The notes below the pieces were generated by a model. That model did not search any database. It was given only the letters and a program-made list of their open reading frames with translations, and was not told the DNA's origin. A stretch of 64,000 nt of DNA from Cryobacterium adonitolivorans. Its GTDB lineage: Bacteria; Actinomycetota; Actinomycetes; Actinomycetales; Microbacteriaceae. The stretch is taken from positions 1-64,000 of the forward strand of contig NZ_SOFL01000052.1 of NCBI RefSeq assembly GCF_004402695.1, written 5' to 3'. Of the stretch, positions 12,883-28,238 are shown one piece after another (the first letter of the stretch is position 1; each line of letters starts with the position of its first letter). The position numbers and the translations under genes are program-made.

Positions 12883-13482
12883 CTAGAGGCGGTGGAGGAA
12901 GTCCATTTGGAGCTGGGCGACCGTGGCGGCGATGAGGTAGCAGGCGATGGTGATCACGAAAATCCAGGAGTACGCGCCGGCCGCCATCCGTCGCATGCGG
13001 GCCGAACCCGGGATGATGCCGGTCTTGAGGTTGTACAGGGTCACGGCGAGGAACACGGGGATCGTCACGGCCCAGGTGACCATGCACCACGGGCACAGCA
13101 CGTCGAGGACGAAGAAGCTCTGACCCATGAGCCAGATGACGAAGGCAAGCGCCCCGGCGACCCCCAGGTTCAGGCCCAGCCAGAACCACCGCGCGAAGCG
13201 GGCGCCGGAGAGGATCGCGGCGCCGATGGTGATCACTACGCTCCAGCCGGTTACTCCGATCAGAGGGTTCGGGAAGCCGAACACCGCGCCCTGCCAGGAG
13301 CCGAGGTTGGTGCTGCAGCCCACCAGGACGCTGAAGTTGCAGGACAGCTGGGCGTTGGGATCTTCCAGCATCGCGAACTTGTCCAGGGTGAGCGCGAATG
13401 CCGCCGCGAACCCGATTGCCCCGGCGAGGATCAGGAAAACAGCGAGGCCGATCGGAGGCTTTTTTGAGGTGGTGAATGGCAC
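12883..13482 (-). CDS. vitamin K epoxide reductase family membrane protein
   Basis: A 199-residue protein with about five membrane helices. The redox centre CPWC (Cys130/Cys133) and a loop cysteine pair, Cys48 and Cys56, match bacterial VKOR proteins, which reoxidise a DsbA-like thioredoxin-fold partner using quinone. This supports disulfide formation in exported proteins. No DsbA gene is adjacent in this window. The gene is divergent from rne, and the 275 bases between carry the rne leader. Family assignment is firm; the physiological partner is unknown. Confidence 0.92.
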   Translation of the reverse strand: MPFTTSKKPPIGLAVFLILAGAIGFAAAFALTLDKFAMLEDPNAQLSCNFSVLVGCSTNLGSWQGAVFGFPNPLIGVTGWSVVITIGAAILSGARFARWFWLGLNLGVAGALAFVIWLMGQSFFVLDVLCPWCMVTWAVTIPVFLAVTLYNLKTGIIPGSARMRRMAAGAYSWIFVITIACYLIAATVAQLQMDFLHRL

Positions 13483-13529
13483 ATTCGGATTATGCCATGT
13501 GTCGCGTGCGCGTCCCTGAGAATGCGTGC

Positions 13530-13757
13530 GATAATCGAAACAGTCGTTTGAGCCGCGCTCAAACCGATGCCATAAGGCTTAATGGGCGGCATTCGCCCAG
13601 ATTCATTGGTCCTAGACCAAAGGTATTTGCAACCAGAGCCAAGAGCCGGTTGCGTAACGCAATAGGATTCGCGGGGTTTTCGCGCAAGCGAAAGGCCCGC
13701 ACGAGAGAGTAACCGAGTGGGTGGCGCGGTCACCCACAGCGGTCAAGGAGCGCACCA
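13530..13757 (+). promoter_or_regulatory. hairpin-rich 5' leader of rne, with candidate -10 box
   Basis: A GATAAT -10-like hexamer (13530-13535) would place a transcript start near 13542. A chain of perfect inverted repeats follows: 13546-13552/13558-13564 (7 bp), 13583-13588/13594-13599 (6 bp), 13606-13611/13615-13620 (6 bp), 13629-13634/13648-13653 (6 bp, competing with 13650-13654/13658-13662), 13678-13683/13688-13693 (6 bp with a GCAA tetraloop inside an outer 5-bp stem 13671-13675/13696-13700), and 13717-13723/13731-13737 (7 bp). The last ends eight bases before the ribosome-binding site AAGGAG (13745-13750). No Rfam family is recognised by eye. Confidence 0.6.
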
Positions 13758-16421
13758 GTGATGGTGGAAGACAACGACAACAAGAAGCGCAAGGGCCTGT
13801 TCGGCACTCGCAAGACAACCAGGAAGGCGGCACCGGCCAAGCAGCTCGAACCGATCGGTGAGACGCCTGGCGTACCCGCTCAGGGCGACCCGGCCGTGAC
13901 GCCGGAGTCACCGTCGGCTTCGGCCGACCAGTCGTCAGCAGCGTTGGCTACAGCAGCGTTGGCTGCCGCTGTGACGGACCAGCCGGTGGCATTCCCCGCC
14001 TTGCCGACACCGTTCGACGAGACCGTCGAGGTCGTTCGCCGGCCGACGACGTCACTGATCTTCCAGGCACCGGCGATCCTGCCGGCCCCGGTGAGGTCCG
14101 GCGGCCGCCAGCTCGACGACGAGGACGACGACCCCGAAGAAGGCTCGACGGTACGCCGGCGCGCCCGCCGCCGCACCGGCGAAGAGGGCCGCAGCGACGA
14201 CCCCGCGAACACCGTGGTGCGGGTGCGCACCCCCCGCGAACCCGAGCTGATCACCGAGCCCCAGCGCATCAAGGGCTCCACCCGCCTGGAGGCGAAGAAG
14301 CAGCGCCGCCGCGACGGCCGCGATGCCGGCCGCCGCCGCCCGGTCATCACGGAGGCCGAGTTCCTCGCCCGCCGCGAGTCGGTCGACCGCGCCATGGTCG
14401 TGCGTGCCAAGCACAACAAGATCCAGATCGGCGTTCTCGAAGACGGCGTACTCGTCGAGCACTACGTGGCCAAGAACCAGGATGCGTCGCTCATCGGCAA
14501 CGTCTACCTCGGCCGGGTTCAGAACGTGTTGCCGAGCATGGAAGCCGCCTTCGTCGACATCGGACGCGGCCGCAATGCCGTGCTCTACTCCGGTGAGGTC
14601 GACTGGGACGCCGCCGCGGTGAATTCCCCGGGGAGCAGCCAGACCCGCCGCATCGAGCTGGCCCTCAAGCCCGGCGACAAGGTGCTCGTGCAGGTCACCA
14701 AGGACCCGATCGGCCACAAGGGCGCCCGGCTCACCAGCCAGGTGTCGCTGCCGGGCCGGTACCTCGTCTACGTGCCCAACGGGTCGATGAACGGCATCAG
14801 CCGCAAGTTGCCCGACACCGAGCGCGCCAGGCTGAAGAAGATCCTCAAGGAGGTCCTGCCCGACAACGTGGGCGTCATCGTGCGCACCGCCGCCGAGGGC
14901 GCGACCGACGAACAGCTCACCCTCGACGTCAACCGACTCACCTCGCAGTGGGCCTCCATCGCCAAGCAGGTCGAAACGGTTTCCGGCCCGGCCCTGCTGC
15001 ACAGCGAGCCCGACCTGCTGATCAAGATCGTGCGTGACGTCTTCAATGAGGACTTCCACAAGATGGTCATTTCCGGCGACGACGCCCAGGAGGTCATCGA
15101 GTCCTACCTGCGCCAGGTGGCTCCCGACCTCGTCGAGCGCGTCCAGCGTTACGAGGGCGAACGCGACGCGTTCGACGAATACCGCATCTCCGAGCAGATC
15201 GAGAAGGCCCTGGACCGTAAGGTCTGGCTGCCGTCGGGCGGTTCGCTCGTGATCGACCGCACCGAGGCGATGACCGTTGTCGACGTCAACACCGGCAAGT
15301 TCGTCGGGTCTGGCGGAAACCTCGAAGAGACCGTCACCAAGAACAACCTGGAAGCGGCCGACGAGATCGTGCGCCAGCTGCGCCTGCGCGACATCGGCGG
15401 CATCATCGTGGTCGACTTCATCGACATGGTCCTGGAGTCCAACCGGGACCTGGTGCTCCGCCGCCTGGTCGAGTGCCTCAGCCGCGACCGCACCAAGCAC
15501 CAGGTGGCCGAGGTCACCTCGCTCGGGCTTGTGCAGATGACCCGGAAGAAGCTCGGCCTGGGCCTGCTGGAGTCGTTCAGCGAAAACTGCGAGGCATGCG
15601 CCGGACGTGGAATCGTCATCCACCACGACCCCGTTGTCAAGCACCGCCAGACCGCCCAGCCCGCTCAGCCCGCTCAGGAGCGTCGCCCCCGCAGCAAGTC
15701 CAACGGCAACGGCGGCTCTGGCCACGACAACGGCACCTCTGGCCAGCGTGGCAACGGCAACCAGCACTCGGGCCAGGCGCACGCCGCACCCGCGCAGACG
15801 GATGCCGCCAAGGCCGGCCACGGCACGCACGGAATCACCGAGGACGCCAAGCACGCCCTCGCGCTGATCGCCGCGCGCACAATCAGCCGGTCTTTGACCG
15901 GCTCGATCCCCGTGATCCCGCCGACAGAGACAGCTGCCCCGGCCGCTGTCCCGGCTGCCGAGGCCGCCGCCCCGACCGAGACCGAAAGCGTTGAGGCCGC
16001 ACCCGCGGCTCGTTCGACGTCCCGCGGCAACCGTTCGGGCGGCCGTTCGGGTGGCCGCAACGGCCAGACGACCGACAGCGCGCCCGCCGCGCAGCCCGAC
16101 GAGGCGGCCACCGCCCCGGCCACCATCGAGGCCGAGCCCGCCGCACCGGCGGTTCAGGAGTCGGTGCCGGTTCCGGAGGTCGAGCCGGCCGACTCTGTCG
16201 AGGGTGTCGCGATTCTGGACATCCCCGTGCAGAAGTCACCGCGCAGTCGCCGCCCGGTGAGCAAGCAGGTCACCGACCAGCTTCTGGATTCGGTGCTCGA
16301 CGCCCTGCCGGAGCCCAAGCAGCCCGGCCAGGGCCGGTCGCGCAGCCGCCGGGTCACCACGGCCGGAGGTCCGACCGCCACCGTGCAGCCGATCGTGGTT
16401 CCCACTCAGGACAACGCCTAA
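13758..16421 (+). CDS. rne: ribonuclease E/G family endoribonuclease
   Basis: An 887-residue protein that initiates mRNA decay and matures stable RNA. It has a disordered, charged N-terminal extension of about 220 residues, then an S1 domain (GNVYLGRVQNVLPSMEAAFVDIGRG) and the RNase H-like/DNase I-like catalytic core with VVDVNTGKFVG near residues 506-516. The Zn-link cysteines Cys611/Cys614 lie in CEACAGRG. A long Ala/Pro/Glu and Arg/Gly-rich C-tail (GNRSGGRSGGRNGQ) is expected to serve as an RNA/protein scaffold. Two starts are possible: GTG 13758 (seven bases after AAGGAG) and ATG 13761 (ten bases). Long low-complexity arms on both sides are usual for actinobacterial RNase E. Confidence 0.95.
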   Translation: MMVEDNDNKKRKGLFGTRKTTRKAAPAKQLEPIGETPGVPAQGDPAVTPESPSASADQSSAALATAALAAAVTDQPVAFPALPTPFDETVEVVRRPTTSLIFQAPAILPAPVRSGGRQLDDEDDDPEEGSTVRRRARRRTGEEGRSDDPANTVVRVRTPREPELITEPQRIKGSTRLEAKKQRRRDGRDAGRRRPVITEAEFLARRESVDRAMVVRAKHNKIQIGVLEDGVLVEHYVAKNQDASLIGNVYLGRVQNVLPSMEAAFVDIGRGRNAVLYSGEVDWDAAAVNSPGSSQTRRIELALKPGDKVLVQVTKDPIGHKGARLTSQVSLPGRYLVYVPNGSMNGISRKLPDTERARLKKILKEVLPDNVGVIVRTAAEGATDEQLTLDVNRLTSQWASIAKQVETVSGPALLHSEPDLLIKIVRDVFNEDFHKMVISGDDAQEVIESYLRQVAPDLVERVQRYEGERDAFDEYRISEQIEKALDRKVWLPSGGSLVIDRTEAMTVVDVNTGKFVGSGGNLEETVTKNNLEAADEIVRQLRLRDIGGIIVVDFIDMVLESNRDLVLRRLVECLSRDRTKHQVAEVTSLGLVQMTRKKLGLGLLESFSENCEACAGRGIVIHHDPVVKHRQTAQPAQPAQERRPRSKSNGNGGSGHDNGTSGQRGNGNQHSGQAHAAPAQTDAAKAGHGTHGITEDAKHALALIAARTISRSLTGSIPVIPPTETAAPAAVPAAEAAAPTETESVEAAPAARSTSRGNRSGGRSGGRNGQTTDSAPAAQPDEAATAPATIEAEPAAPAVQESVPVPEVEPADSVEGVAILDIPVQKSPRSRRPVSKQVTDQLLDSVLDALPEPKQPGQGRSRSRRVTTAGGPTATVQPIVVPTQDNA

Positions 16422-28162: not shown

Positions 28163-28238
28163 GGGTCCGTGGCGCAGCTGGTAGCGCACCTGCATGGCAT
28201 GCAGGGGGTCAGGGGTTCGAATCCCCTCGGATCCACCA
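28163..28238 (+). tRNA. tRNA-Ala (anticodon GGC)
   Basis: A 76-nt cloverleaf. The acceptor stem GGGTCCG pairs with CGGATCC (one G-U); a D arm follows; the anticodon stem CCTGC/GCAGG holds the loop ATGGCAT with anticodon GGC; the T arm is AGGGG-TTCGAAT-CCCCT; and the CCA end is encoded. It sits 73 bases after rsfS and is followed by a strong terminator. Confidence 0.97.

Follow-up and report, generated by a model that had tools for sequence, protein, structure and literature searches.

We have identified a conserved, structured 5' untranslated region (5' UTR) of rne, the gene for an RNase E/G family protein, in Cryobacterium adonitolivorans. The leader spans about 215 nt between rne and a divergent VKOR gene, in a window of 64,000 nt (the whole stretch of DNA that was analysed), and comparison with related genomes shows that its hairpins are conserved. 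A loop-loop (kissing) contact between the first and last hairpins is strongly supported by the same comparison. The leader is hypothesized to act as a kissing ring that would place rne under RNase E feedback, analogous to the rne5 element but not a member of that family, a reading to which we assign a probability of about 0.5. A wider form of this proposal is put forward tentatively, with the odds somewhat against it: that the ring is common to the order, is opened by RNase E at RR|CUU (the bar marks the cut), is a sensor unrelated to rne5 and had its 5' half born in the end of a TIGR03936 gene.

RNase E is the main RNA-cutting enzyme, and the lifetimes of mycobacterial mRNAs are set by it, as is probably also the case for other Actinobacteria. 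In the literature that we searched, no description was found of how Actinobacteria control the level of this enzyme. A covarying leader with a defined tertiary contact provides exact loop mutations and an exact candidate cut site, which opens a direct way to test for RNase E feedback in bacteria other than Proteobacteria and cyanobacteria. If the proposal is true, RNA would have solved the task of rne5 a second time and independently, through a sensor of enzyme activity that has no relation to rne5, and the leader could serve directly as a post-transcriptional control part when genes are expressed in actinobacteria.

A conserved structured 5' UTR of rne

The initial annotation had described at least six perfect inverted repeats upstream of rne. 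All six are present (within 13546-13564, 13583-13599, 13606-13620, 13629-13653, 13650-13662 and 13717-13737), together with a seventh, imperfect repeat at 13671-13700 that is 85% complementary. The last hairpin had been placed just before the ribosome-binding site, and H7 does end one nucleotide 5' of the Shine-Dalgarno sequence. The GNRA tetraloop fared less well: GCAA is present at 13684-13687, but relatives in the genus alignment carry other loops at the same place. The region from 13530 to 13780 folds to -101.2 kcal/mol, compared with a mean of -77.2 kcal/mol (sd 5.0) for 200 dinucleotide shuffles, none of which was as good (z -4.82). The features of the locus are as follows, with pairing percentages given as cells of the alignment in which the pair is formed.

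12883-13482, complement: VKOR gene (PF07884)
13527-13535, plus: extended -10 TGCGATAAT of rne, predicted promoter role; GATAATC lies upstream in 57/57 genus leaders
13543-13568, plus: H1, putative first hairpin of the transcript; inner stem 13546-13552/13558-13564, loop CCGCG at 13553-13557; 88.4% paired, double-sided changes at 5/10 pairs (41 genus rows)
13553-13557, plus: CCGCG, predicted 5' half of the kissing contact, complementary to 13725-13729; invariant in 41/41 genus rows, with CCGCG in 57/57 leaders
13576-13580, plus: GGCUU, candidate RNase E cleavage motif RR|CNU, predicted cut before C 13578
13583-13599, plus: H3 (UGGGCG...CGCCCA); 97.6% paired, double-sided changes at 2/5 pairs (41 genus rows)
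13606-13620, plus: H4 (UUGGUC...GACCAA); 97.6% paired, double-sided changes at 1/6 pairs (41 genus rows)
13629-13653, plus: H5, helix GCAACC/GGUUGC around the conserved CAGAGCC..AGCCG; 100% paired in the genus, double-sided changes at 1/6 pairs (41 genus rows) and at all 6 (61 Microbacteriaceae rows)
13671-13700, plus: H6, variable in sequence; 85.8% paired, double-sided changes at 7/11 pairs (41 genus rows)
13703-13711, plus: conserved unpaired GAGAGAGUA between H6 and H7, columns nearly invariant
13712-13743, plus: H7, last hairpin; stem 13717-13723/13731-13737, outer ACCG/CGGU, loop GCGCGGU at 13724-13730; 93.9% paired, double-sided changes at 2/11 pairs (41 genus rows) and at all 9 modelled pairs (61 Microbacteriaceae rows)
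13725-13729, plus: CGCGG, predicted 3' half of the kissing contact; CGCGG near the leader end in 57/57 genus leaders
13745-13750, plus: Shine-Dalgarno AAGGAG, invariant columns in the genus alignment
13761-16421, plus: rne, RNase E/G family protein, start ATG (PF10150, E 4.4e-103), conserved across the genus

Leader DNA was matched in all 57 genus genomes, including the window's own, with lengths of 222 to 386 nt and a patchy identity in which conserved blocks (the -10; GAGCCGCGCTC; GGTCnnAnGACC; CAGAGCC...AGCCGGTTGC; GAGAGAGTA; TGGCGCGGTC; CGGTCAAGGAG) alternate with variable blocks and insertions. A regular expression for this anatomy matched 24/57 leaders and was used for reading alone. The genus alignment comprised 41 leaders; of the other 16, 13 have long inserts and three are near-duplicates. 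The structure placed on it, drawn on the window's own sequence, has seven helices and 54 pairs, loop-loop pairs included. It is formed in 93.3% of 2196 cells, against 90.1% when the 3' letters were shuffled and 30-41% when the partners were slid. Double-sided changes occur at 18/54 pairs, compared with 11.4 in shuffles (0/500). RNAalifold predicted most of the same hairpins, with 48 pairs, 14 of which have double-sided changes.

The hairpins have compensatory changes among the genus leaders, and those of the 3' domain have them among the Microbacteriaceae as well. A covariance model that covers H5-H6-H7 together with the ribosome-binding site was run on 73 Microbacteriaceae loci, one per genus. 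It found 60 of these in addition to the window, five of them with E above 1e-4 and 18 also belonging to the training set. Across the resulting 61 rows, double-sided changes occur at 20/21 pairs, in 201 double-change cells as against 51 in shuffles, and the covariation score is 0.426 (0.146 shuffled; at most 0.060 slid). Having been fitted to the structure, this alignment leans toward it, but the margin over the controls is large. In the whole genome of the window the model has the rne leader as its sole match. Among 49 loci of other families no credible match was found (best E 0.066), and therefore only the arrangement is common beyond the Microbacteriaceae, while the central part of the leader is not.

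Because the extended -10 TGCGATAAT lies at 13527-13535, transcription of rne probably starts near 13541-13543, just 5' of H1, and therefore every hairpin would be retained in the transcript. A loose -10 pattern occurs 165-410 nt 5' of rne in 93/100 Microbacteriaceae loci, 85 of which have the strict form TG.GATA[AC]T, and the form TG.[GC]ATA[AC]T occurs in 32/40 loci of the order. A sigma-70 scan that also demanded a -35 found no promoter at the rne leader. The ATG at 13761 is kept as the start codon in 57/57 genus genomes, and the preceding codon (13758) is GTG in 40/57 and GTA, GAG, GCA or GCG in the remaining 17. The longest rne open reading frame opens at GTG 13758, one codon before the conserved start, and automatic annotation may begin rne one codon too early. 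VKOR and rne share a short intergenic region (13480-13536). Within it, most genus members also keep the GGATTATG block (13487-13494), a possible promoter of VKOR on the opposite strand.

A probable loop-loop contact between the first and last hairpins

The loops of H1, CCGCG(C), and H7, (G)CGCGG, can form five to seven pairs. Within the genus these pairs never vary and offer conservation only, with no covariation signal. Farther afield, two hairpins with complementary loops recur and compensatory loop changes are seen in relatives. Both words, CCGCG and CGCGG, occur in 37/66 other Microbacteriaceae genera. Automatically chosen loop pairs include GCCGCGC with GCGCGGC or GCGCGGU in 28 Microbacteriaceae genera, and single genera have ACCGCGU/GCGCGGU, GCCACAC/GUGUGGC and GUCGCC/GGCGGC. 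In other families of the order the pairs include CCACACC/GGUGUGG, CGUACC/GGUGCG, CCAUACC/GGUAUGG, CCACAUU/AAUGUGG, CGCCGCA/UGCGGCG, CCAUACCUGC/GUGGGUAUGG and GUCCACACC/GGUGUGGAC. For several leaders, L181, L276 and L287 among them, the loop pair judged by eye differs from the automatic choice.

In order to evaluate these matches statistically, a mispairing test was used in which true H1/H7 apex partners were compared with permuted partners. Two stems close to the 5' end and two close to the ribosome-binding site, the strongest in each case, were chosen blind to pairing between the two ends, and the choice of stems was the same for true and permuted partners. The tests included the 66 of 73 one-per-genus Microbacteriaceae loci that have the loose -10, and an order set of 32 usable loci out of 40 fetched (87 of 89 genomes searched had a match). 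Three of these 66 belong to a group of five among the 93 loose-pattern loci (L139, L166, L195, L225 and L237) in which the start codon used is unlike the conserved one and the 3' segment is probably misplaced; the three stayed in.

No permutation was as good as the true partners for all 98 leaders (0/5000, z -8.4) or for the 66 Microbacteriaceae genera (0/5000), and a single one was for the 32 leaders of other families (1/5000). With one leader per family (13 families), the median p was 0.002 and p was below 0.05 in 95.5% of 200 draws. An apex helix of at least six pairs is available to 24/32 order leaders and 38/66 Microbacteriaceae genera; among mispairs the figures are 515/1756 between the two sets and 486/914 between families of the order set. 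The H1 apex also fits the 3' hairpins better than it fits the leader's own middle in 27/32 order leaders and 57/65 Microbacteriaceae. For the 23 of 32 order leaders classed as having a non-coding H1, 35/10000 permutations were as good; the remaining class, nine order leaders classed as having a coding H1, seven of them by an individual frame check and two (L269 and L283) without one, gave no significant result (1359/10000).

The test was likewise not significant for the 28/66 Microbacteriaceae genera without CCGCG in the H1 apex (753/5000). An earlier apex picker chose wrong hairpins in many Microbacteriaceae and was replaced by the two best stems per end. With it, 0/5000 permutations were as good for the order set and 0/5000 for all 98 leaders, 657/5000 for the 66 Microbacteriaceae genera and 4487/5000 for 38 non-canonical members, the last in the wrong direction. 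A simpler approach, which looked for helices of any kind joining the first 60 nt to the last 60 nt, was swamped by chance helices in GC-rich sequence and was dropped. By eye, several lineages (e.g. L148, L160/L218/L220, L173 and L211) have no matching loops, and therefore loss or rebuilding of the contact has probably occurred repeatedly.

Proposed RNase E feedback and competing explanations

The candidate cut site of the window's leader, GGCUU, belongs to a motif that is enriched at all three levels of comparison. RRCUU, where R is a purine, occurs in 52/57 genus leaders (shuffled mean 20.7), in 53/66 Microbacteriaceae genera (23.5) and in 30/32 order leaders (9.9); it lies within the first 90 nt in 51/66 of the Microbacteriaceae genera but in 8/32 of the order leaders. 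By eye, the five genus leaders that have no RRCUU keep RN|CNU. Mycobacterial RNase E cuts before C, its mapped cellular sites are mostly RR|CNU, and the four sites mapped in vitro are RN|CNU (PMC10641625). The same source places the transcription start of M. smegmatis rne 236 nt 5' of the start codon and reports that an rne message with a replaced promoter and 5' UTR outlived the native one; in the accessible portion of that paper its authors draw no conclusion on autoregulation from this. M. smegmatis is outside the leaders compared here. Because the message with the replaced promoter and 5' UTR lived longer, there is indirect support for the view that an actinobacterial rne leader may shorten the life of its own message. 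RNase sensing by the leader, as the initial annotation had suggested, is plausible, since the enriched RR|CUU fits the mycobacterial RN|CNU preference and the M. smegmatis half-life result points the same way.

Under the feedback reading, transcription would start just 5' of the strong hairpin H1, several hairpins would come after it, and H7 would end directly at the ribosome-binding site. Pairing of the H1 and H7 loops would probably hold the leader as a closed ring, with its 5' end beside the ribosome-binding site. Plentiful RNase E would cut RR|CUU sites in the leader and sever H1 from H7; this would open the ring and expose a 5'-monophosphate end, and the rne message would decay or be less translated. 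With RNase E busy elsewhere, the ring would persist and more enzyme would be made. We favour the opening of the ring by RNase E as the feedback step because of the conserved order of parts: a 5' hairpin, a cut motif, middle hairpins, a hairpin at the ribosome-binding site and a contact between the first and last loops.

A constitutive structural leader, in which the hairpins and the ring would shield the 5' end and leave the ribosome-binding site free but would sense neither RNase E nor anything else, is rather unlikely, yet it would produce the same conservation and covariation. It would also suit H7 as an insulator of the Shine-Dalgarno sequence and the fact that no intrinsic-terminator-like site was found in the leader (intrinsic attenuation was rejected on this ground). 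The length of the leader and its conserved unpaired GAGAGAGUA, CAGAGCC and RRCUU, however, appear to exceed the needs of a protective hairpin, and the lower stability of the native M. smegmatis rne transcript relative to the one with a replaced promoter and 5' UTR (PMC10641625) also speaks against protection as the sole role.

The leader could alternatively be an aptamer for a target other than RNase E: it might bind a metabolite, as a riboswitch, or a different RNA-binding protein, for example a partner in the degradosome. Riboswitches, too, are long leaders of many helices in which unpaired blocks are highly conserved and a tertiary contact is present. We nevertheless consider this improbable: the 3'-domain model matches the rne leader alone in the window's genome, the one genome searched, and no Rfam family matches the leader region (13480-13800) at E up to 10.

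Still less probable, at long odds, is a two-state switch. In one version the 3' arm of H1 would pair either within H1 and with H7 or with the ribosome-binding site (13555-13560/13748-13753); the lowest-energy nested fold of the window's leader indeed has no H1 and pairs its 3' arm with the ribosome-binding site instead, and 97.2% of the corresponding cells pair in the 41 genus leaders. Against this, the pairing has no double change, and the match of 5' segments to the ribosome-binding site of the same leader is no better than to those of other leaders (4854/5000 for the 66 Microbacteriaceae genera, 2242/5000 for the 32 order leaders). Closure of the site by H1 was rejected on both counts as a general mechanism; such a switch is not a conserved feature, and in Cryobacterium it might still operate. 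In the other version, which the initial annotation had favoured, 13650-13662 replaces 13629-13653. The former is paired in only 50.2% of cells in the 41 genus leaders, a value that 440/500 shuffles reach, and the latter in 100%, and the switch was rejected.

Finally, chance hairpins in GC-rich DNA, where chance helices are many, or conservation through overlapping genes or promoters, as might be expected where the H1 of some other families lies within the TIGR03936 3' end and is also under protein constraint, can be set aside as hardly credible, given the shuffle and slide controls, the compensatory changes that largely refute it, the mispairing result in the 23 leaders classed as non-coding, and a genome for the window in which no TIGR03936 gene was found.

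Known systems, origin of the 5' half and variant leaders

With Rfam 15 at gathering score, the sole match in the whole window was a tRNA at 28163-28235, far from rne, and 20 related loci had no match of any family. Membership in any Rfam family, rne5 and rne-II included, was rejected on the basis of these absent covariance-model matches. Among the systems closest in kind are RF00040, which we take to be the rne5 element of Escherichia coli and its relatives, and the Actino-pnp motif, an actinobacterial leader of an RNase gene (pnp) used for autoregulation.

The rne5 element is a structured rne 5' UTR through which RNase E exerts negative feedback in cis (PMC10989929, PMC3997798). Both it and the present leader lie in the 5' UTR of rne, as far as transcription can be predicted here, and the negative feedback described there is proposed here. 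The Cryobacterium leader differs in its hairpins, its phylum and its loop-loop contact as well as in the lack of a covariance-model match, and its enzyme, if mycobacteria are a guide, cuts before C. The rne-II motif (RF01756) of Pseudomonadales (PMC2864571) is likewise a structured RNA candidate named for rne and derived from comparative genomics, but it gives no match here, belongs to another taxon and has no known homology to this leader. In Synechocystis sp. PCC 6803, RNase E cuts its own rne 5' UTR and is proposed thereby to limit its own expression; the site is a stretch of six U within AU-rich sequence, and transcription also terminates prematurely (PMC10989929). The longest U run in 13536-13757, by contrast, is four, there is no terminator-like site and the candidate site is RR|CUU. 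Leaders of pnp are cut by RNase III (PMC3848588, PMC4681348). The likeness to Actino-pnp and pnp leaders is that the leader of an RNase gene is used for autoregulation; the gene and enzyme differ (pnp, RNase III), and the leader described here has no match in the Rfam searches.

The initial annotation knew of no actinobacterial counterpart, which agrees with both the Rfam result and the literature. No actinobacterial rne leader structure was described in the literature searched, which included few subscription papers and no bioRxiv preprints, or in the accessible parts of PMC3997798, PMC10126417, PMC3848588, PMC4681348, PMC10641625 and PMC2864571. A self-regulating rne leader is thus already known in kind, from E. 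coli and by indication from Synechocystis; what is new, within the literature and databases searched, is the RNA described here, together with its architecture and the phylum in which it occurs.

Several other families have a TIGR03936 (DUF2344) gene in front of rne, with the -10-like element and H1 contained in its last part, and the upstream frame is open through both. Overlap with the 3' end of an upstream open frame is seen in L055, L056, L057, L062, L066, L072, L268, L272-L274, L279, L280 and L285. Differences among 13 leaders fall by codon position as 281/202/764, and the one member scanned (L268) scores 184.1 bits for TIGR03936, against a cut-off of 71.9. We infer that the 5' half of the leader may have arisen in or under the TIGR03936 gene and stayed after the gene was lost. 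A leaderless upstream open reading frame (MVVRHTTPAVRPDDVL...) had also been considered and was rejected, since the frame continues upstream as the 3' end of the TIGR03936/DUF2344 gene. The corresponding DNA of L271 and L281 has the look of a degraded relic of the upstream frame.

Leaders also vary in their inserts and neighbouring elements. Tandem, diverged copies of a ACAGAGCUUAAUGAGU-like unit occur between H1 and H3 in six Cryobacterium relatives (L124-L127, L129 and L130) and stretch their leaders to 285-386 nt, with seven copies in L130 by a rough pattern; these units may be repeated candidate RNase E sites. In Nocardia, Rhodococcus and Gordonia loci (L051, L058, L063, L065, L071, L073, L074, L079 and L080), all Mycobacteriales, a different and strongly conserved inverted element, of the type GCCCCCGCGTCGGCCGCGTC...GACGCGCCCGGGGGCCCGAGGAG, lies directly 5' of rne and adjoins its ribosome-binding site. 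Within the order, a CGACUUCCGUCG-like hairpin carrying RRCUU recurs in the 3' half of the leader in many of L268-L307.
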